From a virus: DNA of 20,282 bases. The position numbers and the translations under genes were made by a program. Location of the stretch: positions 1 through 20,282 of the IMG/VR virus record IMGVR_UViG_3300020437_000342; one strand, written 5' to 3'. Positions within the stretch are counted from its first letter, which is position 1. Each line of letters starts with the position of its first letter. The notes under the pieces are model-generated. The model had not been told where the DNA came from, made no database searches, and saw only the letters and a program-made list of their open reading frames with translations. Below are positions 4,014 to 20,282 of the stretch, piece after piece.

Positions 4014-4205
4014 TTAATTGGATTGACGTTTGGCTAATTCTAAATCCTCTATCTCAGCCAACTTATAGAGGATCTTTCCATTAATGGTATAAAAAGAAGG
4101 TGGTTTACCTTCTCTTCTCCACCTTTCAACAGAACCAATATGAACTCGCCATCTTTCAGCAAGTTCGCTTGGTGTTAGAAATTCTTTTTTAGAATCCGAA
4201 GTCAT
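4014..4205 (-). CDS. Excisionase-like helix-turn-helix DNA-binding protein
   Basis: A 63-residue protein matching the HTH_17/excisionase (MerR-like winged helix) pattern: LTPSELAERWRVHIGSVERW forms helix-turn-helix, then RREGKPPSFY and INGKILYKLAEIEDL form the wing and last helix. Proteins of this type act as excisionases, as AlpA-like activators or as small repressors. It overlaps the RecT-like gene by 17 bases and precedes SSB, so it is co-expressed with recombination genes. No integrase is visible, so an excision role is unproven; autoregulation of this operon is an alternative. Confidence 0.8.
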   Translation of the reverse strand: MTSDSKKEFLTPSELAERWRVHIGSVERWRREGKPPSFYTINGKILYKLAEIEDLELAKRQSN

Positions 4206-4821
4206 CTATACCCTCCTGTTGATCTACAACTATTTCAACATTACCTTCTGTAACGTCAATCGGCTGTATATCTACTACTTCCTCGCTAGTCTGCACACCT
4301 AATAATAGGTCAGGTATGTATTGCCTACCAAAGAAAGTAGCAGCCCTATTTTTTAGCATTAACTCTGGCATTGATTGATACTTAGGATTTTTCCTAGTCC
4401 AACCTTCTTGTTGTGCCATCTTCATAGATACTGCTGTACCTTTAACTAACTTGTTATCTTCAAGTCTTATAGCTTGGCATTGAACAGCTAAATTTTCATC
4501 TTTACCAGTAACAACATAGTCAAAGTTCTTAAATCTACCGCAGCCAAGGATGTTAGAGGTTATAAATTGAGAACTCCATGTTGGTCTGCCATGTATAACA
4601 TTTAAGTTTTGCATGACTGTAAGAGGACTAAGATTCATTCTCTTACTCATCTCTAATGCAACAAGACAATTAGATAAACCTTTTTGACCACGATACGTTG
4701 TTGGTACAAGATCAGATTCACATAAGCTTTTTGCTTGTCTCTGTGCAAACTCAAAAGACTCGGTGCTTTGATAGATAGAGGACTCGCCCTCAAGATTAGT
4801 TTTAGTAATTTCAGATGTCAT
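4189..4821 (-). CDS. recT: RecT-family single-strand annealing protein
   Basis: A 210-residue protein with the RecT-family layout: an N-terminal helical region with NCLVALEMSKRMNLSPL (51-67), the segment MQNLNVIHGRPTWSSQFI (70-87), a central beta region with VQCQAIRL, and the helix PELMLKNRAATFFGRQYIP (152-170) followed by LLGV and an acidic tail. RecT proteins anneal complementary single strands after a partner exonuclease has resected DNA. The partner here is the RecE-like nuclease just upstream, separated only by a 43-residue gene that overlaps both. The SSB-like gene downstream completes the pathway. It is shorter than E. coli RecT (269), as in many phage versions. Confidence 0.85.
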   Translation of the reverse strand: MTSEITKTNLEGESSIYQSTESFEFAQRQAKSLCESDLVPTTYRGQKGLSNCLVALEMSKRMNLSPLTVMQNLNVIHGRPTWSSQFITSNILGCGRFKNFDYVVTGKDENLAVQCQAIRLEDNKLVKGTAVSMKMAQQEGWTRKNPKYQSMPELMLKNRAATFFGRQYIPDLLLGVQTSEEVVDIQPIDVTEGNVEIVVDQQEGIDDFGF

Positions 4822-4942: not shown

Positions 4943-5775
4943 CAGTAAAGCTGAATCTCCTCGTCAGATGACGTATGATCTTTTTTCTTGGTCATCCAAG
5001 GAGGTAAGTCGATTGTTTCTATTTCGTTAGGAGTATAGTCTGGGTAAGAATCGTTTTCTTTACACCAAAGTATTTGATTGATAGCTTCATCTACTTTTTT
5101 ATTACCTTCCTCAAGCATTTCTCTACTAGCACGATATACACCAACACAAAAAGGCGCAGTTTTTTCTATAGCAATAAATATAAAGTCATATGAATCAAAC
5201 CCTAAGTTCTGCAAAGTCCTTAAATAAAATGCAGCTTGGATATGGTAGCCAAATTGTCCTATAGATTTTTGGAAACCTTTAGGACTTGCATCTTGTGTAG
5301 TCTTGAGATCAACAACAATGTTTTTATCATGTGAAATCCAATCTGGCCTGCATTTTGCCTTTATTCCGTCTAAATTTTCACTAAAAAAGCTTAATTCTGT
5401 TAATCCTTCCATGTCATAGATCATCTTAGCTGGACTTGCTAAGAAGCTATGGTTCATATGAATAAGATTTTCTTCCCACTCAGCAGCCAATATATTTAAG
5501 TGACCATGTTCTTCCATCCATTGTTTGCCTTCTTTAGTCCTACCATTAAATGCTTTTGGTTTGTAGCAATATCTATTTTTAAATAACTCATTCTCCAAAA
5601 AGAATGTATGAACAGCAGTACCTTCTTCCATTGCTTTCGTAGGTACAGATTCAGCAGTTTTATCGTGTAGATATTTTTTAGGGCTAATTAGTGCTTTACG
5701 AATAGTAGAAGAAGACTCGTACTTAGTCTTGCCATGATACTCTTCGTTAGTCATTACAAGTGGTTTATAAATCAT
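4942..5775 (-). CDS. RecE/Cas4-like PD-(D/E)XK 5'-3' exonuclease
   Basis: A 277-residue nuclease of the PD-(D/E)XK superfamily, in the group of RecE C-terminal domain (PDDEXK, DUF3799-like) and Cas4/lambda-exonuclease-like proteins. Visible motifs: S21-S23 in the N-terminal SSSTIRKAL, H56 in GTAVHTFFL, D145 in RPDW, D156-x-K158 in VVDLKTT, and Q180/Y184 in QAAFYL. These are the metal-binding and catalytic positions expected of the family. It would resect double-strand ends and load the RecT-like protein encoded two genes later. It overlaps the upstream gene by 11 bases. No Cys cluster typical of iron-sulfur Cas4 is seen, which favours RecE-like. Confidence 0.85.
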   Translation of the reverse strand: MIYKPLVMTNEEYHGKTKYESSSTIRKALISPKKYLHDKTAESVPTKAMEEGTAVHTFFLENELFKNRYCYKPKAFNGRTKEGKQWMEEHGHLNILAAEWEENLIHMNHSFLASPAKMIYDMEGLTELSFFSENLDGIKAKCRPDWISHDKNIVVDLKTTQDASPKGFQKSIGQFGYHIQAAFYLRTLQNLGFDSYDFIFIAIEKTAPFCVGVYRASREMLEEGNKKVDEAINQILWCKENDSYPDYTPNEIETIDLPPWMTKKKDHTSSDEEIQLY

Positions 5776-6067: not shown

Positions 6068-7756
6068 ATGCAACTAAGAGATTACCAAAATTCAGCAATC
6101 TCTAACGTAAGAAAATCGTTTCAAGCGAAGTACAGATCTGTGCTGCTTACTCTTCCTACAGGTGCAGGCAAGACTGTTATCTTTTCTGAGATAACAAGAC
6201 TTGCAGGGTTGAAAGGTGCAAGTGTTCTTATACTTGTACACCGAAAAGAATTAATAGATCAGGCTGGCGATAAATTAACCAAGACAGGTGTTAAATACGG
6301 AATAATTGCAGCAGGCCGTAAGGAATCTAAGAGTAATGTACAAGTTGCCTCGGTGCAAACTTTAATTAACAGACTTAATAATCCAAATCAATTTGACTTG
6401 ATAATTATTGATGAAGCTCATCATGCAGTTGCTAATTCTTGGCGAAAGGTATTTGACTTTTACAAATCAGCAATAAAACTTGGTGTAACAGCTACACCTA
6501 TGAGAATGACAGGTGCAGGGCTAGGAGAGATATTTGATAAGTTAATTGTTGGCTCTACTATTCCAGAACTTGTAGAGCAAAAATATTTAGCAGAACACGA
6601 AGTATATGCACCACCAAATAAGCTAAATTTAGACAAAATAAGGACAATTAGGGGTGATTACAGCAAAAAAGAGGTAGAAGACGAGTTAGATAAGGTTGAT
6701 ATAGTTGGTGATGCAGTAGAGAATTATCGAAGACTTGGGCAGAATAAACCAGCTATAGCATTTTGTATATCAGTGAAGCATGGACAATATGTAACCAACA
6801 AATTCAAACAGGCTGGATACACCGCAGAACTTATAACAGGTTCTATGAAATCTGATGATAGAAAAACATTAATAGATAATTTTAAAGATGGAAAAGTACA
6901 GATATTAGTTTCTATAGATGTAGTCTCAGAAGGATTTGATGTGGAAGGTTGCTATGTTGCTATTCTACTTAGACCGACACAATCAGAAGCTTTATATATA
7001 CAACAAGTAGGAAGAGTTCTTAGACCAGAACCTAATAAAGTTGCAATAGTTTTAGATCATGTAGGTAATACAAAACGTCATGGATTTGTTGATGATGTTA
7101 GAGAGTTTGATTTACACCAGAAAGCAAAAACAAAAAGAAAAGGAGAACTTGCACCAGCAGTAGAAACTTGCGAGGTTTGTTTTGCAGTCTATAGACCGCA
7201 ACCAATATGTCCTGTTTGTGGACATAAAAAAGAAGTAAGAAAAAGAGAAATTACATATGAAGATGGAGAGTTAGTAAAAATGAAAAAACAACTTAAGCTT
7301 GATGAAGGAGATCCATTAATAGAAAAATCTACAGGAGCAAAGTTATATTTTTATGCTTGGGATGATGACCAAAGAAAAATAGGTTTTCAGTTTTCGTTGG
7401 GTCGTAAAAATCCAAAAGCTAAATGTTTTACCCCAGCACAATTTAAAGATTTCTGTAAACAAGACTTGTATGGTATTCATTCAAAGCATACAGATTATGC
7501 AAAGAAAAAATTTACAGAACGATTTTTAAGTTTAGTTAGATTGGCTGAAGTAGATATAGATGATATTGCTGTTATTAGATCAGAGCAGCAACGAAGAAAA
7601 AAAGAAGAAGAGTGGAGTTGTAAGACTTTAAAAGATTGGTTAAAGCTTGCACAAAAACGTGGGCATAATGCGTATTGGGCTAAGTTAAGATGGGAGATTG
7701 CTAAGAAAAGAAAACGTAAGGATAACTATGATGATGACGATTTATTTGGCTTCTGA
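6068..7756 (+). CDS. SF2 DEAD/DEAH-box helicase with C-terminal zinc ribbon
   Basis: A 562-residue superfamily 2 helicase of the Res/DEAD group. Visible motifs: Q-motif-like LRDYQ (3-7), Walker A PTGAGKT (30-36), DEAHH (115-119), TATP (141-144) and motif VI QQVGRVLRP (312-320). After the two RecA-like lobes comes a four-Cys zinc ribbon (C368, C371, C381, C384). The remaining 170 residues are basic and helical, ending in an acidic DDDDLFGF. Such phage helicases unwind DNA during replication or recombination. The ATG follows a strong promoter with a leader of only about 15 bases and no SD. It is the first gene of the replication operon and divergent from RecE/RecT. Confidence 0.9.
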   Translation: MQLRDYQNSAISNVRKSFQAKYRSVLLTLPTGAGKTVIFSEITRLAGLKGASVLILVHRKELIDQAGDKLTKTGVKYGIIAAGRKESKSNVQVASVQTLINRLNNPNQFDLIIIDEAHHAVANSWRKVFDFYKSAIKLGVTATPMRMTGAGLGEIFDKLIVGSTIPELVEQKYLAEHEVYAPPNKLNLDKIRTIRGDYSKKEVEDELDKVDIVGDAVENYRRLGQNKPAIAFCISVKHGQYVTNKFKQAGYTAELITGSMKSDDRKTLIDNFKDGKVQILVSIDVVSEGFDVEGCYVAILLRPTQSEALYIQQVGRVLRPEPNKVAIVLDHVGNTKRHGFVDDVREFDLHQKAKTKRKGELAPAVETCEVCFAVYRPQPICPVCGHKKEVRKREITYEDGELVKMKKQLKLDEGDPLIEKSTGAKLYFYAWDDDQRKIGFQFSLGRKNPKAKCFTPAQFKDFCKQDLYGIHSKHTDYAKKKFTERFLSLVRLAEVDIDDIAVIRSEQQRRKKEEEWSCKTLKDWLKLAQKRGHNAYWAKLRWEIAKKRKRKDNYDDDDLFGF

Positions 7757-7790
7757 TGTCACAGGTCGGTAAACTAGACAGTTAAATTTG

Positions 7791-7819
7791 TTGACATAAC
7801 TAGACTCTGTTTATATAGT
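7791..7819 (+). promoter_or_regulatory. Strong sigma70-type promoter TTGACA-17-TATAGT
   Basis: TTGACA (7791-7796), 17-base spacer, TATAGT (7814-7819). The expected start site near 7826 lies after the GTG at 7818 and ATG at 7821, so translation probably starts at ATG 7842. The sequence ACTAGAC occurs twice around the -35. Confidence 0.75.
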
Positions 7820-7841
7820 GATGTTACAGATCGCAAAAGTG

Positions 7842-8816
7842 ATGACACTAACAGCACAAGAAATTACTACACAACTTACTGAGCAATACAAAGATGTTCA
7901 AGTAGGTATCGAGTTTATAACTCCACAACAGGCACAGATTTATATGAATCGGAATTTTGCCAACAATAGAAAAACTGTTCTAAATAATATTTTAGAATTA
8001 GAAAGAGAAATGAAGGCTGGTCGCTTTATTCTTTCCGATTCCGCTATTTGTTTTAATACAGAAAACATATTAGTAAATGGACAGCACAGGTTATTAGCAG
8101 TTATAAAAACTGGCCTTACTCAGCCTTTTGTCGTTATAAAAAATCTTCCTGACAAATCTAAATTAATCATGGATGTTGGTAAGTCTAGGGTTATGTCAGA
8201 TCGTATTACTGTTAGTGGTATAAGAATATCTCGTAAAGAGTGTTCAATAATAAGACACGCAATGTCTAGAGTTACTGGCAACACAACAGGTACAGAACAA
8301 TTTTCAAGACCTTGCCACGATAATATTGTTGCTCAAACTTATATCAAGCACGATCAGTTTCTTAACTACGTTAATAAATTGCATTGCTCAAAAACAAGAG
8401 CTATTTTTATCGCAGCAGCATTAAAAATTTATGCTGAAATGATATACAACAAAAGGTCTGGAAAGCGTAAATTGAATCACGATATGACACCAAAAGAAAG
8501 GGCAATTCATTTTCTTAATATCGTATCTTCTGGTATGGCATCTCCTATTAATGGTGTAGATAAAGATATAAAACCTGTTGATAGGGCAGCACAATTATTA
8601 TTTAACAGGACTTGTGATTCTTCTCTTAAAGCTACATATTGGAATAGTGCTGATGCTTGGGCTTATACATTGAGAGCAGCGCATCATTTTATGTGTGGTA
8701 ATGATACAACATATATAAGACAAGCTTTAGATGATCCATTTAAACCATTTACTGAATTACCTTCGACAAATGAGATAATGGAAATATCATCAACACAAGC
8801 CACTAATATTACTTAG
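7842..8816 (+). CDS. ParB/DGQHR-like phage protein
   Basis: A 324-residue protein from ATG 7842; earlier in-frame starts (7818, 7821) lie within the promoter. Residues 55-84 include MKAGRFILSDSAICFN and the key motif NGQHRL (79-84), then a segment resembling phage ParB-like proteins in which an MD.G..R box follows (MDVGKSRVMSDR, residues about 106-117). The NGQHR motif recalls the DGQHR domain of DndB and ParB-like nucleotide-binding folds. The rest is helical. Similar proteins are widespread in phages of many hosts but have no proven function. It sits in the replication operon between helicase and a ribbon-helix-helix protein; the stop codon lies in a hairpin (8800-8819). Confidence 0.7.
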   Translation: MTLTAQEITTQLTEQYKDVQVGIEFITPQQAQIYMNRNFANNRKTVLNNILELEREMKAGRFILSDSAICFNTENILVNGQHRLLAVIKTGLTQPFVVIKNLPDKSKLIMDVGKSRVMSDRITVSGIRISRKECSIIRHAMSRVTGNTTGTEQFSRPCHDNIVAQTYIKHDQFLNYVNKLHCSKTRAIFIAAALKIYAEMIYNKRSGKRKLNHDMTPKERAIHFLNIVSSGMASPINGVDKDIKPVDRAAQLLFNRTCDSSLKATYWNSADAWAYTLRAAHHFMCGNDTTYIRQALDDPFKPFTELPSTNEIMEISSTQATNIT

Positions 8817-8831
8817 TGGTTTGTACAAACC
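8800..8831 (+). promoter_or_regulatory. Hairpin fused to 14-bp palindrome before RHH gene, likely operator
   Basis: CCACTAA (8800-8806) pairs with TTAGTGG (8813-8819) around a 6-base loop and spans the upstream stop codon. The perfect palindrome GGTTTGTACAAACC (8818-8831) follows at once. The next gene, from ATG 8849, encodes a ribbon-helix-helix protein, and such proteins commonly bind palindromes next to their own gene. No T-run, so termination is unlikely. Confidence 0.55.
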
Positions 8832-8848
8832 AAACTAATTTTTATAAC

Positions 8849-9118
8849 ATGGATGACAGAAAGTATGTTCGAGTAATTTTTCAACTCGAACCAGATCGGC
8901 ATGAGTTTATAAAACAAGAAGCCGAAAAAAAAGGCTTATCTATTAGCCAGTATTTACGAAATCTTGTTAGAGAAAAGTTTTATAGTGGCAGATTTACTTC
9001 AATGTATGAGGAGCAAAGACAGGAAAGAATTAACGATGGTTTTGAACAAGATCATCAAGCTATGTTAGACAAGCTCCGAAGCAAATTTGCTGACACACCA
9101 GATTTCTCTTATAAATAA
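8849..9118 (+). CDS. Ribbon-helix-helix (CopG/Arc-type) DNA-binding protein
   Basis: An 89-residue protein from ATG 8849. An in-frame GTG at 8816 would add 11 residues but overlaps the palindrome, so I prefer the ATG. The N-terminal 45 residues show the RHH pattern: strand KYVRVIFQLEPD, helix RHEFIKQEAEKKG, then LSISQYLRNLVREKF (turn plus second helix). The C-terminal half is charged and helical (YEEQRQERINDG... to DKLRSKFADTP). RHH dimers bind operator palindromes through the strand; the 14-bp palindrome just upstream is the obvious candidate. It lies in the replication operon and probably controls it or copy number. Confidence 0.8.
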   Translation: MDDRKYVRVIFQLEPDRHEFIKQEAEKKGLSISQYLRNLVREKFYSGRFTSMYEEQRQERINDGFEQDHQAMLDKLRSKFADTPDFSYK

Positions 9119-9146
9119 TGTATTATGGAAAAAACTACATCATTAG

Positions 9147-9503
9147 ATGTCAAACCAAGAGACAGTCTTACAACAAAATATAAGGTTAGCTCTTGGACAA
9201 CATTCTGATTTACGCTTATTTCGCAACGAAACTGGAAAACTTCCAGATCCTAGAACAGGGAGATGGGTACAGTTTGGGTTGGCAAAGGGTAGTTCTGATC
9301 TTATTGGTTTTAAGACTGTCAAGATTACTCCTGAGATGATAGGACAAGACTTGGCAGTATTTACAAGTATCGAAGTTAAAACAAACACTGGACAACTCTC
9401 AAAATATCAGCATAATTGGCTTCAAGCTGTTAAGAAAGCTGGAGGAATTACAGGGGTAGCTCGTACTGTAAGAGATGCCTTAGAAATACTCAAAGTTAAC
9501 TAA
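9147..9503 (+). CDS. VRR-NUC domain nuclease
   Basis: A 118-residue stand-alone VRR-NUC (PD-(D/E)XK) protein. Motifs: E5 and the N-terminal helix, RNETGK (26-31), FGLAKGSSDLIG (43-54) with D51, IEVKTNTG (75-82) with E76 and K78, and Q88/W91 in the last helix, followed by GGITGVARTVRDAL. This covers the whole minimal domain found in phages, whose members cleave branched or flap DNA; FAN1 carries the same domain. It is placed between an RHH protein and the primase-helicase, with gaps under 30 bases, which suits a role in processing replication intermediates. The exact substrate is not predictable. Confidence 0.85.
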   Translation: MSNQETVLQQNIRLALGQHSDLRLFRNETGKLPDPRTGRWVQFGLAKGSSDLIGFKTVKITPEMIGQDLAVFTSIEVKTNTGQLSKYQHNWLQAVKKAGGITGVARTVRDALEILKVN

Positions 9504-9529
9504 CGCTTTTAAACATACCTGTTATCTTT

Positions 9530-11692
9530 ATGTCTGCATTTGAGTTAGACCGCAATCAGTGGCGGTCATTTTTAGAACTTCTCGGAAAAGATATTCGTAA
9601 AGTTCGATTAAGATCATTCTTCCCAAAAGGTCATCCATTAAAAGAAAGAGATCGTGGTAAAAAATCTAACGCTAATGGTGATTGGATAAAACATTGTCAA
9701 GAAGAAGGTCGAGGTGTCTATCTTGTTATTAATGATGGCGAAGATACAGACTCTTCTATAACAGGTTGCCGAGCCTTTTTTTATGAACACGATGATATTT
9801 CAAAAGACAAGCAGCTATGGATTTGGAAAGACTTAGGCTTACCAGAACCATCAATACAAATAGATACAGGCGGTAAATCTATTCACAATTATTGGATACT
9901 AAAAAAAGCGATAGAACCAGAGACTTGGAAACCTATACAAGAAAGATTATTAGATTATGCAGATGCAGATAGAGCATTAAAAAATCCATCAAGAGTAATG
10001 CGTCTTCCAGGAACTTTCCATATGAGAGATGATGGTACTCATGGCGGTATGACTCAAATCATCCATACATCAGATAAAAAATATAGCGTTAAAGATATAG
10101 AGAAATGTTTGCCTACAAAAAGACAACATGAGAAAAATAAAGAGTCTGTAGAGTTTAAAGAATATCGTAAAGAGGATTTTGCAACAGTACAAAAAGCACT
10201 CTCACACATACCACCTAGAACTCCCGGCTCGAACACATATCATATGTATCGCAATATTTTATGGGGTCTTATAAAAGCTTGTGAGGATGCAGGCAAAAGT
10301 TCTGCTGATGCAATATCTCTTATGAGAGAACACTCGCCAGAATGGGGAGGACTCGATCAAGTTGCACAGTCTGGAGGGCAAAAAATAGAAGCTAATAGTT
10401 TTTGGTATTGGGCAATGCAACATGGTTACAAACCACCAAAAGTAATGAGAGTTTTAAATCCAGATAATCCAGATAGTCCTACATTAGTTCATTCAGATAA
10501 ATTACAAAAAATTGAAGCAAATGAACTATTAAACTTGCTTAAGACTCGCAGAGAGAATGGCGAACACGCATTTAGATACAACATATTTACACAACAGATA
10601 GAACTAAATGGAGTACCTTGTCAGGGGTCAACTTCTATTGATAGATATTACTTGGAGCTTGCTAGGCAAGGTTACAAATGTAATAAGGATACTGCCTTTG
10701 ACTGTGTTGTACAGATTGCCAGAGAATATGAATACAATCCAGTAACTGATTATTTAGATAAAGTTTATAAGACAGAATCGCCAGCTTACATAGACAGACT
10801 CGCAAGTACTTACTTAAGACCCGAAGATGCACATCTATCAGAACCGACTATCTATGACGATATGTTGAAGAAGACATTGATTGCAGCAGTAGCTAGAGCA
10901 TACAAACCAGAAGGGCATAAATTTGATAATGCTTGTGTTTTATTAGGAGAACAAGGAGCTAGAAAATCTACATTTTGGTCTGTCTTGGGAGGAGAGTTTT
11001 TTAGTGATGGCTTAAGAGACATTAACGGAAAAGACTCGCTTATGATCTTGCACAGAAGTTGGATTTGTGAGATGGCCGAGCTAGAAGCTGTCACATCTAA
11101 AAAAATGGCAGGGGAAATAAAATCTTTTTTATCTCAAGAAAAAGATGTTTTTAGAGTTCCTTATGGAAAAGTTACTGAGGAGTTTCCTAGAAGAGGAATT
11201 ATTGTTGGCTCAACAAACAGACATGATGGTTTTCTTGTAGATGAAACAGGAAATCGGAGGTTTTGGATAATCAAGTTAGGAGAAAATATTGGGATAGAAA
11301 ACCCAATAGATTGCGAAGGACTACTTGCGGAGAGAAATCAGATTTGGGCGAGTGTTGTAATGGCTTACAAAAATGGCGAGACTACATATTTAACTAAAGA
11401 AAATGAAGTCAAAGTAAACGAGGAAAATTTAGATTATTTAATCGAATCGCCTTGGAAAGCTGTTATCGAATCTTTTTGCGAAACACCACAGAATTTTCGT
11501 AGGGAACTTACAACCGAAGTTGTACTTTCTGAAGCTATTGAAAAACCAATTGAAAGACAAACTAGATACGATCAAATGCAAGTTGCAACAATTTTAAAGA
11601 ATTTAGGCTACGAAAAAAAGCGTAGAGGAAGTAGGGGTTGTCGCAAATGGGTCTACATTCGAGACTCGGAACGTGTCTTAACCTCTGCGTGA
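9530..11692 (+). CDS. Primase-helicase: AEP-like N-terminus, VapE-like ATPase C-terminus
   Basis: A 720-residue protein. The N-terminal part (about 60-170) resembles archaeo-eukaryotic primase/RepB-type domains: FFYEHDD (83-89, metal-binding acidic motif), GGKSIHNYW (114-122, with His119) and NPSRVMRLPGTFH (152-164). A Glu/Lys-rich helical linker follows. The C-terminal part (about 440-640) is a virulence-associated-E (VapE)-like P-loop ATPase: Walker A GEQGARKST (473-481), acidic WICEMAEL (511-518) and the signature STNRHDGFLVDETGNRRFW (561-579). It ends with a basic winged-helix-like tail. Such proteins prime and unwind DNA at phage and plasmid origins. The ATG is immediately preceded by TATCTTT with no SD. 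This is the main replication protein of the element. Confidence 0.88.
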   Translation: MSAFELDRNQWRSFLELLGKDIRKVRLRSFFPKGHPLKERDRGKKSNANGDWIKHCQEEGRGVYLVINDGEDTDSSITGCRAFFYEHDDISKDKQLWIWKDLGLPEPSIQIDTGGKSIHNYWILKKAIEPETWKPIQERLLDYADADRALKNPSRVMRLPGTFHMRDDGTHGGMTQIIHTSDKKYSVKDIEKCLPTKRQHEKNKESVEFKEYRKEDFATVQKALSHIPPRTPGSNTYHMYRNILWGLIKACEDAGKSSADAISLMREHSPEWGGLDQVAQSGGQKIEANSFWYWAMQHGYKPPKVMRVLNPDNPDSPTLVHSDKLQKIEANELLNLLKTRRENGEHAFRYNIFTQQIELNGVPCQGSTSIDRYYLELARQGYKCNKDTAFDCVVQIAREYEYNPVTDYLDKVYKTESPAYIDRLASTYLRPEDAHLSEPTIYDDMLKKTLIAAVARAYKPEGHKFDNACVLLGEQGARKSTFWSVLGGEFFSDGLRDINGKDSLMILHRSWICEMAELEAVTSKKMAGEIKSFLSQEKDVFRVPYGKVTEEFPRRGIIVGSTNRHDGFLVDETGNRRFWIIKLGENIGIENPIDCEGLLAERNQIWASVVMAYKNGETTYLTKENEVKVNEENLDYLIESPWKAVIESFCETPQNFRRELTTEVVLSEAIEKPIERQTRYDQMQVATILKNLGYEKKRRGSRGCRKWVYIRDSERVLTSA

Positions 11693-11943
11693 GGTTAGTA
11701 CACGCTATGGACACCACAAACAATGTCAGGACTTGCGATATAAGCTGTGTCTATAGTGTCTATACCTTTTACTATAAAGTATAATAAGTAAGGAAGAGGG
11801 GGAGTATAGGGAGTATATAGGGGAAAATAGGGGATTTAGGAAACTCTATAGGGAAGGTAGGGCAGGTCAGGACATATGGACACCTAATAAAAAGCTAGTC
11901 TCACACCCTAAGACTTGCTAATATACAAAAAACAAGACTCGCA
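11693..11943 (+). other. Non-coding region with six regularly spaced G-tracts and flanking repeats, origin candidate
   Basis: No credible gene lies here. G-tracts of 3-5 start at 11798, 11809, 11820, 11830, 11851 and 11860; the first four are spaced 11, 11 and 10 bases, about one helical turn, and could form a G-quadruplex. GGGAGTATA occurs twice in direct repeat. The block is flanked by two copies each of ATGGACACC (11707, 11876) and GTCAGGAC (11725, 11866) in mirrored order. TACT-ATAA-AGTA (11770-11781) is a variant of the right-hand operator, with TATAAT at 11780-11785. Position next to the primase-helicase fits an origin or its control region. Confidence 0.5.
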
Positions 11944-12693
11944 ATGGCAGCAACAATAAAAATTAGTTTAGGTAATTTAGAAAAACGATTAACAATATAT
12001 GAACAGACACAAGTAAAATTTGCAGGCAAAAAAGCATTAACTCAATATGCAAAAAGAGCAAAAACAAAGGAAGGTTTTATTGCAAAAAAATATAAGATGA
12101 TGTTTAGAAGTCCAGTACTTTTTACTTTAAATAGTACTTTTACAGTTCAAAAAGGAATTAAGTTAGATATTGGGGTAAAAGATGCTTTAGCTTTAAAAAA
12201 AGGTAAAGGCAATCCAGCAGCATTTTATTTGTATCCAGCAATCGGAGGAGGTTCAACAAGTGCTTATGCAACACAATTTACTCAATATTTATTAAACAGA
12301 AATTTTATGAGTAATGGAGATTATCCGTTTGCAGTTTTAGGCAATAATTTTATAAAAACAGATGGAAGTGGAAGAGTTAGAAGATATATTTACAGAAACG
12401 TACAATTTGGGCTTGCAAAAACTAGAGATAAAGAAGTTAAAGGTAGATCAAAGAAGAATGGCAAAATACAAGATGCAAGAGTAATCGCTTTTAAATCAAA
12501 TAAAGGTAAATTTAAAAAAGGTATTTATCGTGAAGTATCAAACAAAAAAGGCTCATACTTAAGCCCATTGTTTATGTTTAAACCAGTTCCGACACAAAAA
12601 CCAAAGCAAACATTTAGATCCATAATTCAAGATTCTAGTAAAAAAATTATTCCAGAATTGTGGTTTAAAGAAATAAAAGAACTTGCTAAGTAA
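11944..12693 (+). CDS. Basic phage protein, possibly minor tail protein Z-like
   Basis: A 249-residue, Lys-rich, AT-rich gene. Its order of elements recalls lambda gpZ/minor-tail-Z and HK97 gp10-type neck-tail proteins: a helical N-terminus (LEKRLTIYEQTQVKFAGKKALTQYAKRAK), a basic middle with beta segments (GVKDALALKKGKGNPAAF), then IAFKSNKGKFKKGIYREV followed by PLFMFKPVP and a closing helix (KIIPELWFKEIKELAK). The resemblance is in layout only, so the call is tentative. It stands alone between the G-rich region and the ligase gene, and tail genes would not normally be here. The start follows GACTCGCA directly, without SD. Confidence 0.4.
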   Translation: MAATIKISLGNLEKRLTIYEQTQVKFAGKKALTQYAKRAKTKEGFIAKKYKMMFRSPVLFTLNSTFTVQKGIKLDIGVKDALALKKGKGNPAAFYLYPAIGGGSTSAYATQFTQYLLNRNFMSNGDYPFAVLGNNFIKTDGSGRVRRYIYRNVQFGLAKTRDKEVKGRSKKNGKIQDARVIAFKSNKGKFKKGIYREVSNKKGSYLSPLFMFKPVPTQKPKQTFRSIIQDSSKKIIPELWFKEIKELAK

Positions 12694-12717
12694 ACAAATT
12701 AGTACTATAATAGTATC
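12683..12717 (+). promoter_or_regulatory. Promoter with TACT-N5-AGTA box (ligase gene)
   Basis: TTGCTA (12683-12688), 17 bases, TATAAT (12706-12711). The -10 is embedded in the box TACT-ATAAT-AGTA (12703-12715). A TTATCTTTATCTTAA leader runs from here to the ATG at 12734. Confidence 0.75.
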
Positions 12718-12733
12718 ATTATCTTTATCTTAA

Positions 12734-13513
12734 ATGACAATCGCAGACGAATTAGCAAAGGAATTTTTATATCACAACGACTTATATCGTGCAGGTAGGG
12801 CAGTAATATCTGACAAACACTTTGACGAGATTAAGAAAGCGTTAATCGCTGTAAGTCCACATCATCCAGCACTAAAAAAAGTAGATGAGGGTTGTGTATT
12901 GACAGGTCTTGGCACGTTACCTTTTGCTGAGTGGTATTCTTATTTACCAAAAAATACACCAGTAATTGTTGAGCCTAAGATAGATGGATGTGCAATGGCT
13001 GTTAGGTATGTAGATGGAATATTAGTTAAGGCATGGACTCGCAAAGGTGTAGATAAAACATATTGCATGAGGATGATAGAAGATTTACCAAAGCATATCC
13101 TTGCAAGAGGTACTGTTGAGATTAGAGGAGAGTTATATGGTAAAGGTCTTATTCCAGCTAGATCACAAAGACTCGCAGCAGGCCACTTACGCAAAAAACA
13201 GCCATCAGGGATGGGATTGTCTTTTTGTGCTTTCCAGATATTTAATGGGAAAGGTACAGAGGTATCTAATTTACAACAACTTTATAAATGGGGTTTCAAT
13301 GTATGTGACCATATAAAGTTTACTAAAGATGTCGTATCACAAGTTAAAGAGTTACATATTCAATGGCAAGACTCGCTGATATTTAGTCGCTATCCCACAG
13401 ACGGAATCGTAGTTAAAGTTTTAGATAAAGACTTGCAAGAAGAAATTGGAAGAACATCAATAGCACCAAGTTGGGCTACAGCTATAAAAGATGTGTGGAA
13501 AAAGACTTGGTAG
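12734..13513 (+). CDS. Minimal NAD+-dependent DNA ligase (adenylation domain only)
   Basis: A 259-residue protein equal to the Ia plus adenylation domains of bacterial LigA. Residues 9-40 (EFLYHNDLYRAGRAVISDKH...) match the NAD-binding Ia domain. The nucleotidyltransferase motifs are all present: catalytic Lys82 in EPKIDG (80-85), WTRKG (101-105), VEIRGEL (128-134), DGIVVKV (223-229) and SWATAIK (246-252). OB-fold, zinc finger, HhH and BRCT domains are absent, so it is about one third of a normal LigA (near 670 residues). It may seal nicks with help from another protein, or perform adenylation for repair. It is a single-gene cassette with its own promoter and TATCTTTATC leader. Confidence 0.8.
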   Translation: MTIADELAKEFLYHNDLYRAGRAVISDKHFDEIKKALIAVSPHHPALKKVDEGCVLTGLGTLPFAEWYSYLPKNTPVIVEPKIDGCAMAVRYVDGILVKAWTRKGVDKTYCMRMIEDLPKHILARGTVEIRGELYGKGLIPARSQRLAAGHLRKKQPSGMGLSFCAFQIFNGKGTEVSNLQQLYKWGFNVCDHIKFTKDVVSQVKELHIQWQDSLIFSRYPTDGIVVKVLDKDLQEEIGRTSIAPSWATAIKDVWKKTW

Positions 13514-13514
13514 G

Positions 13515-13552
13515 TTGACTACTGAGTAAGTATCGAGTATTATAACAGTAGT
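13515..13552 (+). promoter_or_regulatory. Promoter with TACT-N5-AGTA-type box
   Basis: TTGACT (13515-13520), 17 bases, TATTAT (13538-13543). The box is TATT-ATAAC-AGTA (13538-13550), one base off the consensus. The leader TTTATATTTTATCAACT leads to ATG 13569. Confidence 0.7.
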
Positions 13553-13568
13553 TTATATTTTATCAACT

Positions 13569-13790
13569 ATGTCAAATCAAAGGCAACAAGTTAATTGCCG
13601 AATAGAAGAATCGACCTTAACTAAACTAAAAGCACTCGCTAATGGTTACAAATACAAGGCTTGCCCTACTTGTGGTAGAGCTTGGGACTTGCATGGAGGT
13701 GTCAAGACCGAGCCAATACAACATAGTGTTTTAGCAAGTCAGCTATTAGAAAAAGCTATTGACCAGCTATTCCAAGACAGCCAAAATTAA
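13569..13790 (+). CDS. Possible ribbon-helix-helix protein with CxxC insertion
   Basis: A 73-residue protein. The start looks like RHH (QQVNCRIEESTLTKLKALANG: strand then helix), and the end supplies a second amphipathic helix (HSVLASQLLEKAIDQLFQD). Between them lies a short segment, YKYKACPTCGRAWDLHGG, with CxxC plus His, which may bind a metal. Short proteins with this RHH-like frame and a mid-protein CPxCGR insert would be DNA-binding regulators. It has its own promoter and box, which makes it a candidate for the regulator of the box itself. The assignment is from pattern, not a proven family. Confidence 0.55.
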   Translation: MSNQRQQVNCRIEESTLTKLKALANGYKYKACPTCGRAWDLHGGVKTEPIQHSVLASQLLEKAIDQLFQDSQN

Positions 13791-13791
13791 T

Positions 13792-13854
13792 TGTTACGAT
13801 TTTGTAACATAGTACTAGACAAGTACTAATCTATCCTGTACATTAAAAATGTAC
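13792..13854 (+). promoter_or_regulatory. Triple inverted-repeat control region upstream of accessory operon
   Basis: Three elements in a row: TGTTAC-N6-GTAACA (13792-13809), the box AGTACTAGACAAGTACT (13811-13827, TACT-AGACA-AGTA) and the perfect-arm palindrome GTACATTAAAAATGTAC (13838-13854). A TTTATCTTTATCTTTATTA leader follows to ATG 13874. The density of sites suggests control by more than one regulator of the operon that ends with the Mom-like gene. Confidence 0.65.
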
Positions 13855-13873
13855 TTTATCTTTATCTTTATTA

Positions 13874-14227
13874 ATGACAACATCAATTAAACCAAAAAGA
13901 AAATTACTCGGTACACTAGCTTTCTCTCAGAAAGTAAACGAGTATCAATTATTCAATTCCGCTAGAGAATTAGACATCAGATCAAAAGTTATGCTTCATG
14001 CAAGTGGAGATTGGGGTGATCTAGCACCAGAAGACGCAGAGACTAACAATCAGGTAGTCAGAAAAAGCAATGGTGGCAGATTACATTCTGTTTATAAATT
14101 GCAAGACAATAAAACTATTTGGATTATTACATCAGGCTATGGTCTTACTAAAGATGACATGGACTTGACTCAGTTTTCCGAGCAAGATTATTGCAACACA
14201 GTAATTTTATTTCCAGAGGAGTATTAA
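13874..14227 (+). CDS. Plasmid/phage GDWG-family protein, unknown function
   Basis: A 117-residue protein matching a widespread small family found on plasmids, phages and some chromosomes. Its signature is SGDWG.L..ED (44-54), then a Gly-Arg-Leu-x-Ser turn and IWIIT (82-86), and an ending in ILFPEEY (111-117). In databases it is often unnamed or misannotated as a restriction subunit; no function is established as far as I know. It is the first gene of an operon (13874-15599) leading to a Mom-like DNA-modification enzyme, and it uses the pyrimidine leader rather than an SD. Confidence 0.75.
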   Translation: MTTSIKPKRKLLGTLAFSQKVNEYQLFNSARELDIRSKVMLHASGDWGDLAPEDAETNNQVVRKSNGGRLHSVYKLQDNKTIWIITSGYGLTKDDMDLTQFSEQDYCNTVILFPEEY

Positions 14228-14229
14228 AA

Positions 14230-14496
14230 ATGTCAAAAAAGAAAATGGTTGAATTTACAACAGTTACAGATTATCAGCAAACATTCCGAATATGTTTAAC
14301 TGATATATGGGAAGAGATATGTAAGGAACAAGATTTTGAAGATGAAGATACTGATATAACCTATTGGGAAGAAGAAAATTTAAAAGAAATAGCTTGGGAT
14401 TATGTTTTAAAAAATCCTGATAAATATAAGGTTGGAGAAGGAGATTATGATAATGAAACTATATTAGACCAATCACTTTGGGAGGAAGAATCATGA
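14230..14496 (+). CDS. Small, strongly acidic protein
   Basis: An 88-residue protein; ATG 14230 is preceded by AGAGGAG at a good distance, so an upstream start at 14191 is unlikely. Asp and Glu make up roughly a third of residues, concentrated in the middle and end (EDEDTDITYWEEENLKEI). No family recognised. Very acidic small phage proteins can mimic DNA and block restriction or nucleases (for example Ocr and Gam-type inhibitors); with a Mom-like gene in the same operon this is a reasonable guess, but only that. It overlaps the next gene by 4 bases. Confidence 0.7.
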   Translation: MSKKKMVEFTTVTDYQQTFRICLTDIWEEICKEQDFEDEDTDITYWEEENLKEIAWDYVLKNPDKYKVGEGDYDNETILDQSLWEEES

Positions 14497-14678
14497 CTAG
14501 AGAAATGTTATTCCTATGTGATGTTCTTGAGGATTGGTGTGAGAAAAACAATTTTCCACATAGATGTGCAAGTGATTTACTTCACAATGCTGACACTAAA
14601 GGAAGACTTACAGGTAATCAAGCCTATTGGTTAGAAAGCTTTATCTCTACATGGGATATTGTTAATCAAAATTCATAG
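14493..14678 (+). CDS. Small protein, unknown function
   Basis: A 61-residue protein from ATG 14493; the SD (GGGAGG) lies within the last codons of the upstream gene. It is helical with Cys residues at 9, 16 and 25 (FLCDVLEDWCEKNNFPHRCASDLL) and several Trp. The segment RLTGNQAYWLESFISTWD looks like a small helical bundle element. It is positioned inside the Mom-like operon. Family not recognised. Confidence 0.6.
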   Translation: MTREMLFLCDVLEDWCEKNNFPHRCASDLLHNADTKGRLTGNQAYWLESFISTWDIVNQNS

Positions 14679-14689
14679 GAGGTAAAACA

Positions 14690-14914
14690 ATGAATTTAAC
14701 TTATGAGCAAAAAGTTTATCAATGGGCATCAGGTCATTATTTAGCTGATGATGTACCTAATAGTTTTTTTAAATTAACAAGTCAAGAACAGTTCGACTAT
14801 TTAGAAAATAATGCTTGGCAATTTTTTGAAGATTGTCGTGGCAAAGATATACATCAATATATTTGGTCTTTAGCTAATGACGTAATTATGAAAAAAGTAC
14901 CTAATGACTCTTAA
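14690..14914 (+). CDS. Small acidic protein, unknown function
   Basis: A 74-residue protein with a perfect SD (AGGAGG) about 8 bases before its ATG. It is rich in aromatic residues and Asp/Glu (QWASGHYLADDVPNSFFKL, then FDYLENNAWQFFEDC). No catalytic pattern visible. The last 11 bases overlap the Mom-like gene, so it may couple translation of that enzyme, as the small gene com does for mom in phage Mu; however it has no Com-like zinc finger. Confidence 0.6.
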   Translation: MNLTYEQKVYQWASGHYLADDVPNSFFKLTSQEQFDYLENNAWQFFEDCRGKDIHQYIWSLANDVIMKKVPNDS

Positions 14915-15599
14915 AGAAAAATATATAGTTCGCAAGTTAAGTACAAATGAATATGTTGAGTGGTTTAAACAAAAACATTATGCAAAACGTATTCCTAGTG
15001 TGTCTTATGCTTATGGACTATATAAAAATAAATTTATTGTTGGTATTTGTAGCTATGGAAGACCTGTTGCTCACACTTTAGTTAAGTATGCTTTTGCAGG
15101 CAAATTTCAAAATAATTTTTTAGAGCTTAACAGGTTAGTTGTAGATGAGGGATTAGAAAAAAATGTTTTATCTTTTTTTGTATCGCAAACTATTAAACAA
15201 TTACCTACACCAAATGTAATTGTTAGTTATGCAGATACTTCTCTAAATCATCATGGCTATATTTATCAGGCTTGTAATTTTATTTATACTGGACTATCAG
15301 CTAAAAGGTTTGACTATAAGGTTAAAGGACTCGAACACTTGCACAGTGCATCTTTGATGGACAAAGTAGGGAGAGGACTTGCAAAGGGAAAAATTCTTAA
15401 ACTTAGGGAAATGTATGGAGATAGATTATATACTTTAGATCGACCTAGAAAACATAGATATTTTTATTTCTTAGGGACTCGCAAACAAAAACAAGAGATG
15501 AGAGACTCGTTAACTTACGCTGTAGAGCCATACCCCAAAGGTGATAATGGGCGATATGACACTTACGATAATATAAATAGACAAGGAATATTATTCTAA
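14904..15599 (+). CDS. Mom-like DNA-modification protein (GNAT-related)
   Basis: A 231-residue protein with the pattern of phage Mu Mom and its relatives, enzymes that convert adenine in phage DNA to a carbamoylmethyl-type derivative and protect it from restriction. Visible features: HYAKRIPSVSYAYGLY (25-40), FIVGICSYG (44-52), FLELNRLVV (72-80), VSYADTSLNHHGYIYQACNF (107-126), then YTGLSAKRFDYK. The ELNRL, SYAD and GYIYQA.NF blocks are the most typical. The rest (about 140-231) is basic with several Tyr. It is the last gene of an operon of small acidic proteins. A GNAT-like fold and DNA target are inferred from family knowledge. Confidence 0.85.
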   Translation: MTLKEKYIVRKLSTNEYVEWFKQKHYAKRIPSVSYAYGLYKNKFIVGICSYGRPVAHTLVKYAFAGKFQNNFLELNRLVVDEGLEKNVLSFFVSQTIKQLPTPNVIVSYADTSLNHHGYIYQACNFIYTGLSAKRFDYKVKGLEHLHSASLMDKVGRGLAKGKILKLREMYGDRLYTLDRPRKHRYFYFLGTRKQKQEMRDSLTYAVEPYPKGDNGRYDTYDNINRQGILF

Positions 15600-17200: not shown

Positions 17201-17370
17201 TGCCAAAATTATTTACATCATTAGTTACTGTTCAGTTTGCTTGTAATAACCACGAAGCTAACTCTAGAGAGGATTATATAGATCTTCTTAAAAGACAGTA
17301 TTTAGAGGAATACAATATTGAATTACAAGATGATGAAATTAGTCTAATAGAGGAGATTAAAAATGACTAA
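17200..17370 (+). CDS. 56-residue acidic protein, unknown function
   Basis: ATG 17200 shares a base with the preceding stop (TAATG), with GGAGGAGGAG as an excellent SD; TAA is at 17368. The product starts MPKLFTSLVTVQFACNNHEA and continues with an acidic helical part (REDYIDLLKRQYLEEYNIEL). It overlaps the next gene by 8 bases. The strong SD and double overlap make it very likely real although short. Confidence 0.75.
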   Translation: MPKLFTSLVTVQFACNNHEANSREDYIDLLKRQYLEEYNIELQDDEISLIEEIKND

Positions 17371-17815
17371 AACAACCGAGCAAAAATTCAAACTTCACGC
17401 TAATTTTTGGTTTGAAATTAGCACACAAGATCTTAGAGATCTATTCTGCACTATGGGTCAAGGGTCGGGATATTGGGCGCATAGCGTCACAGTAGGAGAC
17501 ATTGAAGAAGACGAAGATGGCTACTATTTACCTAATCAAGACTACGAGCATGAGGGCTGTTGCGCTTGGGTTAAAGATCTAACATTAGATACCAAAATTA
17601 GGATAGAAGATATTGAAGAAGATAAACATGAATTAAAAGTTGCATATGTTATTAAAGCTATAGAAAACATAGTCTCAGGTAAGACTAATCTTAATACTTA
17701 TGATTGCTCAAAAGTTTTTGAAGCATTTAAAGATAATGACTTAGGACTTATTGATGCTTCAATAGCTGACTCTATATTGCAGATAACAACCTACAACACC
17801 CTAGTTTATGGCTAG
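17363..17815 (+). CDS. Acidic protein with Cys/His residues, unknown function
   Basis: A 150-residue acidic protein with an SD (AGAGGAG). Residues 1-75 form a beta-rich part with FCTMGQGSGYWAHSV and YEHEGCCAWV, in which Cys and His could bind a metal; residues 95-140 are helical. Similar short proteins exist in phages to my recollection, without function. It is the last gene of the cassette, followed by oriented GACTCGCA repeats and then a strong terminator. Confidence 0.65.
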   Translation: MTKTTEQKFKLHANFWFEISTQDLRDLFCTMGQGSGYWAHSVTVGDIEEDEDGYYLPNQDYEHEGCCAWVKDLTLDTKIRIEDIEEDKHELKVAYVIKAIENIVSGKTNLNTYDCSKVFEAFKDNDLGLIDASIADSILQITTYNTLVYG

Positions 17816-17816
17816 T

Positions 17817-17854
17817 AGAGACTCGCAGGCACTCGCTGAGAGACTCGCAGGCAC
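17817..17854 (+). repeat. Two direct copies of AGAGACTCGCAGGCAC
   Basis: Copies at 17817-17832 and 17839-17854, spacing 22 bases, with a third partial unit (GCACTCGCTGAG) between. Each copy contains the oriented octamer GACTCGCA found throughout the window. Confidence 0.85.
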
Positions 17855-17996: not shown

Positions 17997-18263
17997 ATGA
18001 CAACTATTTCTTATCTAACTTATTTAGAATTTGTAGATTACGTTTTTAGCTTTTATGGCTCTTATGATGCTATTTACCCCTTACACCATATGGTAACAGG
18101 GCAAAGACTCACAAAAACTGACATCAAAAAAGCAATAAAAGATTATGAATTGTTTTTAGACAATCCCGAATCTACTTGGACTTGGGGTGATGGCGATTCT
18201 ATAGATAGAGAGAGAGTGCGAGACATCTTAGAAACAACGTACCGATTTAAAGAAGAAAAATGA
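17997..18263 (+). CDS. Small acidic protein, unknown function
   Basis: An 88-residue protein: N-terminal aromatic helical part (YLTYLEFVDYVFSFYGSYDAIYPL), then TDIKKAIKDYELFL and a Trp/Asp-rich segment (STWTWGDGDSIDRERVRDIL). No recognised family. It heads a two-gene cassette and overlaps the next start as ATGA. It uses the TATCTTTAT-type leader and no SD. Confidence 0.65.
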   Translation: MTTISYLTYLEFVDYVFSFYGSYDAIYPLHHMVTGQRLTKTDIKKAIKDYELFLDNPESTWTWGDGDSIDRERVRDILETTYRFKEEK

Positions 18264-18418
18264 TTATTAAATCAAATAGTACTTTCTCATTAGTACAAAC
18301 TATAACCGACCAAATTTTTTTAATTGTTAATGGAACATACTCTCAATCAGTTTTAAGAGTTTGGCATATTTCACAAAAACAAGATGCACTTTATGAGTGG
18401 AATAGGATAACAAGTTGA
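18260..18418 (+). CDS. 52-residue protein, unknown function
   Basis: ATG 18260 overlaps the preceding stop (ATGA) and TGA is at 18416. The product starts MIIKSNSTFSLVQTITDQIF and ends in VWHISQKQDALYEWNRITS, a small beta-rich pattern. Its stop codon coincides with the start of the tandem repeat array at 18417. Confidence 0.55.
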   Translation: MIIKSNSTFSLVQTITDQIFLIVNGTYSQSVLRVWHISQKQDALYEWNRITS

Positions 18419-18488
18419 GACTTGGAGACTTGGAGACTCGGAGACTCGGAGACTCGGAGACTCGGAGACTCGGAGACTCGGAGACTCG
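18417..18488 (+). repeat. Nine tandem 8-bp units GAGACTYG
   Basis: Two units GAGACTTG followed by seven identical GAGACTCG, uninterrupted, then CAAG. The unit contains the plus-strand-biased hexamer GACTCG; the last unit reads GACTCGCA. The array begins at the stop of the 52-residue gene and ends 13 bases before a terminator stem. Confidence 0.95.
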
Positions 18489-18501: not shown

Positions 18502-18528
18502 AAGCTCAGAAATGGGCTTATTTTTTTT
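18502..18528 (+). terminator. Intrinsic terminator
   Basis: AAGCTC (18502-18507) pairs with GGGCTT (18514-18519, one G-T pair) around a 6-base loop, followed by A and eight T. It closes the 17997-18418 cassette beyond the repeat array. Confidence 0.8.
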
Positions 18529-18542
18529 CACAAAAATTTCAT

Positions 18543-18713: not shown

Positions 18714-18998
18714 ATGAAAACTTATCAAGTTTTTTTAGGAACAAATAAGCCATCAGGTGGCATTGTTTCAACTCAAGAATGGTTAACATTCTTAAAACAA
18801 ATAGATTCTGTTTTTACTGGTTATACAGTTGAAACAGCTTCGGGATCTTGGAAGGGTATCAAAGAAAAAACCTACATCTTAACAGTCATTACTGATGAGA
18901 TAAAGCAATTAATCAGAATTGCCGAGGATTATAAAATGATTTTTAATCAGGATTCTGTATTAATCCAAGAACTACCAGTTAACCCTTTATTTGTTTAA
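18714..18998 (+). CDS. Small alpha-beta protein, unknown function
   Basis: A 94-residue protein. The order strand (TYQVFLGTNK), helix (STQEWLTFLKQI), strand (GYTVETASGSWKGIKEKTYILTVIT) and helix (IKQLIRIAEDYKMIF), then QDSVLIQEL, resembles small phage/plasmid proteins of the GxT-x-G-W type (DUF3574-like), recognised only by pattern. It heads a cassette with one or two tiny genes and then a terminator. The start is directly preceded by TACTATCTTTATC with no SD. Confidence 0.65.
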   Translation: MKTYQVFLGTNKPSGGIVSTQEWLTFLKQIDSVFTGYTVETASGSWKGIKEKTYILTVITDEIKQLIRIAEDYKMIFNQDSVLIQELPVNPLFV

Positions 18999-19806: not shown

Positions 19807-20282
19807 GCCAGTATGCAAAGTAGTACTGCAGTACTATAAAAGTAGCTTAGTGATAGCAAGCGATTACAGCGAAAATCGCCTGTAACAGTATTGAAAAATG
19901 TTTTTGGTGTGATAGTACTCTAGAAGTATTTAGGCTTGCCTGACGGCCTTACAGAGTACTCTGAGAGTACTTCTAAAAAGCTACTAACTAGAAAAAGAGC
20001 ATATTTTAAAATTTTAGTATTTAGCTTATCAATCAGACTTAAATAATAAGCTGGGCTTATATTTTACAGACTAGGTATAAATACTTAGATAATCTTACTT
20101 TGAGACAGTCTTAAGAAATTGAGACTTGCATAATATTTTGTCAAGTAAAATTCCTAAATCTTATTAATTTTTAATTATAAGCTGAACTTATATTTTAAGC
20201 AAAATAAATAAGCTTAGTTTATATGTACAAGCTTATACAAAATAGGTTCTTTCTGGCTGTCAGCCTGTGGGTAACTTCGTGG
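19807..20282. other. 476-base non-coding region dense in palindromes
   Basis: No credible gene on either strand. It holds TAGTACTGCAGTACTA (19821-19836, perfect palindrome), overlapping the box TACT-ATAAA-AGTA (19832-19844); two further boxes, TACT-CTAGA-AGTA (19916-19928) and AGTACTCTGAGAGTACT (19955-19971, perfect 8-bp arms); a hairpin around GCGATT...AATCGC (from about 19859); and one GACTTGCA (20123). Further right are the AAGCTTAT-type repeats. It could be a control hub, an origin or a packaging region. Confidence 0.55.
20046..20238. repeat. Three to four ATAAGCT...CTTAT repeats
   Basis: ATAAGCTGGGCTTAT (from 20046) and ATAAGCTGAACTTAT (from 20177) are each followed by ATTTTA. A diverged copy, ATAAGCTTAGTTTATAT, starts at 20208, and AAGCTTATA at about 20229. 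The first has perfect 6-bp arms. Their repetition in AT-rich DNA resembles iterons. Confidence 0.5.

Follow-up and report, generated by a model that had tools for sequence, protein, structure and literature searches.

An oriented word and its tandem arrays near the right end of a putative marine cyanophage genome: a candidate Chi-like signal

Why should the short gap between a stop codon and a probable transcription terminator in a phage genome hold nine successive copies of an 8-bp unit? The stretch of DNA analyzed here, referred to as the window, is an IMG/VR record of 20,282 bases, in which this array is the sole strong tandem repeat (TRF score 130, the next best being 39). The features that define the locus and its position in the genome are the following:

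18416-18418, + strand: TGA stop codon of the 52-aa ORF 18260-18418, sharing two bases with the first array unit
18417-18488, + strand: tandem array of nine 8-bp units, GAGACTTG twice and then GAGACTCG seven times
18502-18528, + strand: intrinsic-terminator-like hairpin (AAGCTCAGAAATGGGCTT, 18502-18519) followed by a T tract (T8), just 3' of the array
20266-20282, + strand: right genome terminus, GTGGGTAACTTCGTGG

The original prediction, made from the window alone, had described nine units in a 2 + 7 arrangement, and this proved exact. It had also placed the array precisely between stop codon and terminator, which holds on the 3' side, where the hairpin begins at position 18502, and has to be corrected on the 5' side, where the first two bases of the array belong to the TGA.

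The array and the genome that carries it

Besides a PrimPol-VapE-type primase/helicase, the window encodes an SF2 helicase (6068-7756), a VRR-NUC nuclease (9147-9503), a RecT-like annealing protein, an exonuclease VIII-like protein, a DNA ligase adenylation domain and a Mom-like protein. For the primase, the top database relative was Synechococcus phage S-LBS1 (56% over 54%). The two small genes flanking the array gave matches almost exclusively in marine Synechococcus and Prochlorococcus phages, which makes a marine picocyanobacterium the most likely host. A search for near-identical DNA in phage and plasmid collections returned none, and the nearest relatives of the window were metagenomic contigs. 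The longest of them, G013 (52,363 bases), has the genes for the small and large lambda-type terminase at its left end, and on its map structural genes (0-27 kb) are followed by leftward genes for recombination (27-34 kb) and then by early genes that run rightward up to the right end. The window stops at the same point as G004, G005, G009, G010, G015 and G016, and the first 13 bases of G013 are identical to its last 13, as expected of a cohesive end; the shared stop point and this terminal repeat led us to read the terminus as a cos end. On sequence grounds, the window represents the right-hand, early portion of a lambda-type marine cyanophage genome, with probable cos ends and with terS at the left.

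The RNA hairpin predicted for the array is strong (z -5.3, and -4.6 for the array by itself). A function as RNA hairpin was nevertheless rejected, since the hairpin is absent from the arrays of G012, G015 and G016 and is therefore not conserved. Just past the terminator, between positions 18541 and 18598, there are palindromes around TGTATCAAATGATACA (two copies) and GTACATTTGTAC; similar sequences are also located 3' of the array in relatives, and an operator or promoter region is possible at this place. The small gene 3' of the array (18714-18998), which has relatives in cyanopodoviruses and in P-HM1, encodes a DUF3574 protein with weak similarity to S-adenosylmethionine lyase.

The dispersed word, its direction and its conservation

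The core of the array units is also dispersed through the window, in one direction. GAGACTYG occurs 15 times, always on the + strand, where 0.7 copies would be expected on both strands and no more than 3 were obtained in 100 shuffles. With the array masked, + and - copies amounted to 18:0 for GACTCG (3.5 expected, both strands together), 20:1 for GACTYGC (3.6) and 17:0 for RRGACTYGC (1.1). GACTCG is the top hexamer of the window for both over-representation and strand bias, the top 7-mer score was 10.4 versus a maximum of 6.7 in 30 simulations, and pooling the sites gave the consensus R R G A C T Y G C W. These data support the earlier proposal that the array was made from a dispersed oriented motif, with its orientation kept and in non-coding DNA. 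Most GACTYG sites are intragenic, hitting all three reading frames on both coding strands, while multi-copy clusters are mainly intergenic. Dyad pairing within the word was discarded, just a weak A-T/G-C association being found (p 0.026). The sites outside the array are:

4755-4789, + strand: pair AAGACTCG...AGGACTCGC, antisense in the leftward RecT-like gene 4189-4821 and conserved in G011, G013 and G015
5281-5719, + strand: GACTYG copies at 5283, 5433 and 5714, lying antisense in the leftward exonuclease gene
6198-15509, + strand, first part: dispersed GACTYG at 6198, 6395, 6732, 7463, 8609, 9348, 9922, 10350, 10543, 10797, 11033 and 11663
6198-15509, + strand, second part: dispersed GACTYG at 13036, 13170, 13370, 13430, 13504, 13686, 14162, 15328, 15376, 15476 and 15504
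11730-11941, + strand: non-coding cluster 3' of the PrimPol gene, GACTYG at 11730, 11912 and 11936, the last copy ending just 5' of the ATG at 11944
17818-17849, + strand: second cluster, GAGACTCGCAGGCACTCGCTGAGAGACTCGCA, directly 3' of the stop codon of ORF 17363-17815 and upstream of a GAGGGG...CCCCTC hairpin with T6
20121-20129, + strand: single copy of the motif, GAGACTTGC, at a distance of 160 bp from the right end

The gene whose start codon is preceded by a motif cluster (11944-12693, in the early region) encodes a 249-aa protein of PHROG 1924, annotated as 'minor tail'. Its identity between phages is 48-58%, that of neighboring genes being mostly 75-97%, and its fold, modeled with moderate confidence, gave no match in the PDB.

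For the comparison with relatives, RRGACTYG was counted on each strand (+:-) after collapsing each array. The ratio was 31:1 in the window, 45:0 in G004, 40:0 in G010, 47:0 in G011, 56:1 in the 52-kb G013 and 28:3, 47:2 and 30:3 in further close relatives. More distant relatives gave 21:5 (G017) and 16:1 (G018), and in G002 the word is nearly limited to its arrays. The rightward orientation was kept within leftward genes, to which the sites are antisense (4:1, 7:0, 6:0, 5:0, 9:1, 9:1 and 5:1 per contig). Along G013, site density stays near background over the structural genes and is high between 27 kb and the right end. Between relatives at 86% identity, 77-85% of the GACTYG sites were kept versus 51-56% of permuted words, the corresponding values at 77% identity being 54-57% and 26-28%, and nearly all gains and losses of sites took place on the + strand. 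These comparisons argue that the word is selected as DNA and with a direction, independently of gene strand and reading frame. DNA modification by Mom could be rejected as the cause, since G004 lacks a Mom homologue and still shows the 45:0 ratio. No such strand bias was found in Prochlorococcus phage P-SSP7 or in one Kyanoviridae contig, and the array matches in the high-GC contigs G001, G003 and G006 were set aside as unrelated, mostly lacking a one-way bias (13:2 in G006).

Other oriented words were also noticed. GCCTGCC is a one-way 7-mer in G017 (10:0, 0.7 expected), GCAGGCA is one-way in the clade of the window (24:2), and the structural half of G013 (1-27000) has strand-biased TGGCGGT, CTGCTGG and TGGTGG-type words that resemble Escherichia coli Chi and may reflect glycine/alanine codon use.

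A different word was found in the sister phages L342 and L343, whose primases are 66-72% identical and which show no GACTYG bias. L342 has 14:0 copies of GTTCTTG and 10:0 of GTTCTTGC (several sites, between 3260 and 16740), its top 7-mer score being 10.1 versus a maximum of 7.2 in 30 simulations, and L343 has 8:0 copies of GTTCTTG. The geography is the same as that of GACTYG: sites within leftward genes lie antisense to them, one cluster occupies the gap 3' of the primase gene and another is located immediately 3' of the stop codon that ends the Mom-like gene. Given that both words end in CTYGC, we infer that the GACTYGC and GTTCTTGC lineages share one recognition system, the specificity of which would have shifted. 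A weak trend to purine-rich RRGG and TGGTTTA-like bases was noticed just 3' of the intergenic GTTCTTGC copies in L342.

Arrays at the orthologous place in relatives

All eight contigs with the common right terminus, the window included, have an array around 1.5-2.0 kb from that end, usually beginning at a stop codon and finishing before a terminator, and at 107-236 bp from this end relatives carry one or two additional copies. While the GACTCG core is constant, the unit is not. It is 8 bp long in the window, G004 and G005, 8 bp also in G010 and G013, where its sequence differs and 7-bp starters are present, 7 bp in G009, alternately 12 and 10 bp in G015, mixed 8 and 9 bp in G016, and 11 bp in G012, a ninth contig; the more distant G002 has units of 8 bp and alternating units of 8 and 16 bp. 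The orthologous arrays have the appearance of a single site amplified several times independently. Slippage at a functional site, one of the origins proposed from the window alone, is the best account of how the array arose.

The original prediction had also called for a check of relatives, in which absence of arrays and core motif, with assembly error behind the unit number, would have spoken against it; the opposite was found, both being present. Since arrays are located at the orthologous place in relatives from other metagenomes, they are not an assembly artifact, and a varying pitch with a constant core rules out both assembly error and a filament of fixed pitch. The meaning attributed to the 8-bp period, crowded or filament-like protein binding, is therefore not supported, and neither is an array of ribbon-helix-helix (RHH) boxes: the pitch of 7, 8, 9, 11, 10/12 or 8/16 bp among orthologous arrays does not show the constant spacing of such structures. 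Selection seems to act on copy number and direction near the right genome end, and not on phasing.

Possible functions and likeness to known systems

The reading that we tentatively prefer, and which falls a little short of being probable, is that the array arose through slippage from a polar cis-acting site specific to the lineage, RRGACTYGC(A), which would act in a Chi-like way. Once entry of the DNA or cutting by terminase has left the cos end free, a helicase-nuclease, which could be the host RecBCD or a phage-encoded enzyme, would load at the right end and move leftward, meeting the terminal copies and the array first and reading GACTYG from its 3' side. If the chance of recognition per copy is limited, many copies near the end would raise the odds of switching the enzyme from destruction to recombination before phage genes are lost, so that genes further left would be spared. 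Growth of the array by slippage would be favored as more copies increase recognition, and the array would act as a booster.

RecBCD has access to lambda DNA through its right end alone, and recognizes Chi when coming from the 3' side of 5'-GCTGGTGG (PMC2082072), which would put the sites described here in the active orientation. Chi sites of lambdoid phages are concentrated between the replication genes and cos, and are nearest cos in phages having a recombinase but no RecBCD inhibitor (PMC3784561); genes for RecT-like and exonuclease VIII-like proteins are present in the window. The phage word is likewise a short, oriented and over-represented one, with the orientation that is active for right-end entry, and is placed between replication genes and cos. 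A variable pitch with a constant core is also what would be expected if an enzyme moving along the DNA recognized the sites one at a time. To judge by its anatomy, the word fits a polar signal of the Chi type and is a candidate member of the Chi class. One objection to a model based purely on DNA ends is that it does not predict the exact location of several clusters between stop codon and terminator.

Marine Prochlorococcus and Synechococcus possess recBCD (PMC5101192), and a recD match above the family cut-off was found in G143, a 1.75-Mb Prochlorococcus-like genome. No Gam-type RecBCD inhibitor was detected among the phage proteins scanned, a set that left out many small genes. In G143, which may not be the true host, RRGACTYGC reached at most 1.6 times the order-3 expectation, was unexceptional at order 5 (rank 76 of 254) and was hardly strand-biased, without a clear leading-strand bias; the 400 kb examined of G256, which may not be the true host either, gave 1.1 times the expectation and no skew. 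None of the 299 genomes of the order that were screened came near the phage density of the word. An apparent 13:0 strand bias in several of them was dismissed as an artifact, forward hits coming first among the matches listed. Given this lack of clear enrichment in the Prochlorococcus genomes tested, either the host is unsampled, or a phage-encoded enzyme reads the word, or the Chi model does not hold. The octamer that ranks first in G143 for over-representation and skew is a different one, GGGCAGCT, found 41:9 on the leading strand.

A more specific proposal, which we regard as unlikely, is that these phages have a Chi-like password of their own, GACTYGC or GTTCTTGC depending on the lineage, read by a phage helicase-nuclease or by a variant of the host enzyme. 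Phage DNA would be spared while other DNA is degraded, and the arrays at the right terminus would be evolvable strength dials.

Among explanations of another kind, a stoperator-like transcription block is the main rival, although we also consider it rather doubtful. A phage DNA-binding protein, such as the RHH-like protein encoded at 13569-13790 (73 aa, with a CPTCG insertion and no Pfam match), would bind the word and block or tune rightward elongation, with the clusters that lie between stop codon and terminator insulating gene cassettes. The placement of clusters right 3' of stop codons and 5' of terminators keeps such a role alive, and asymmetric oriented sites scattered over the genome and following the direction of transcription are known from Cluster A mycobacteriophages (PMC9283540). 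Besides, the RHH-like protein is 95-97% conserved in close relatives, is found in G017 and G002, and was not seen at that place in L342, which is devoid of the GACTYG word. However, wherever sites fall within leftward genes they run antisense to them, in all contigs and also in L342, most sites lie within genes and in all frames instead of in short intergenic regions, and no lysogeny or immunity repressor was recognized by Pfam or PHROGs among the proteins scanned. Less likely still would be one-way sites used by a primase/PrimPol, a nickase or another protein on one strand during unidirectional (rolling-circle) replication. The constant orientation along the map, the density peak around the PrimPol-helicase region and the presence of a PrimPol-VapE helicase and a DNA ligase adenylation domain in the phage are consistent with it, but the structural half, which also needs to be replicated, is near background, the pile-up at the right terminus is left unexplained, and the word is long compared with known primase sites, which are much shorter.

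Neutral slippage, by which the array would be a functionless microsatellite or a relative of cyanobacterial short tandem repeats, is already disfavored, and we consider it improbable. GGAGACT-type tandem repeats do exist in cyanobacterial genomes, for example that of Crocosphaera watsonii, and the unit and copy number of the phage arrays change fast; yet the arrays of many relatives share GACTCG, orientation and location despite their different units, single copies are conserved and one-way, and the window is without any other strong tandem array. The near-perfect single orientation could also recall evasion of a type III-like restriction enzyme: if such an enzyme requires a head-to-head pair of sites, DNA with one-way sites is protected, the one-way EcoP15I sites of T7 being the classical example. 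This would account for the loss of one orientation but not for the excess of the other (17 copies of RRGACTYGC versus 1.1 expected), and tandem amplification would be unexplained, all of which makes it a very remote explanation.

Marine picocyanobacterial hosts have RecBCD and, to our knowledge, no known Chi. If the Chi-like reading is right, phages of marine picocyanobacteria would have in the word and its arrays their first candidate signals for recombination or end protection, and such a word would be able to switch between sister phages. Whatever the mechanism, the signal is a clear and testable one in an uncultured phage group: a one-way word that is conserved, with arrays rebuilt time and again near a genome end.

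The combination of features differs from that of the known systems it recalls. Like the stoperators of Cluster A mycobacteriophages (PMC9283540), the phage word is asymmetric, scattered genome-wide and present in several cases at gene ends, but it is shorter, its orientation follows the genome map, it is mostly intragenic and no repressor was found. The short tandem repeats of C. watsonii, of the GGAGACTC type, share with the phage array an 8-bp tandem unit of similar sequence; there, no one-way dispersed copies are known, whereas the phage keeps place and core while the unit changes. The met boxes of MetJ and other RHH operators consist of tandem boxes of 8 or 7 bp, and the window has both an 8-bp tandem pitch and a gene for an RHH-like protein, although the pitch is not conserved among relatives and the word is non-palindromic. 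With respect to Chi of lambdoid phages, the word itself is different, is not clearly enriched in the candidate hosts tested, forms arrays near the end and is switched in sister phages; both are short, non-palindromic and in excess, are located between the replication genes and cos, and have the direction that fits entry from the right end.
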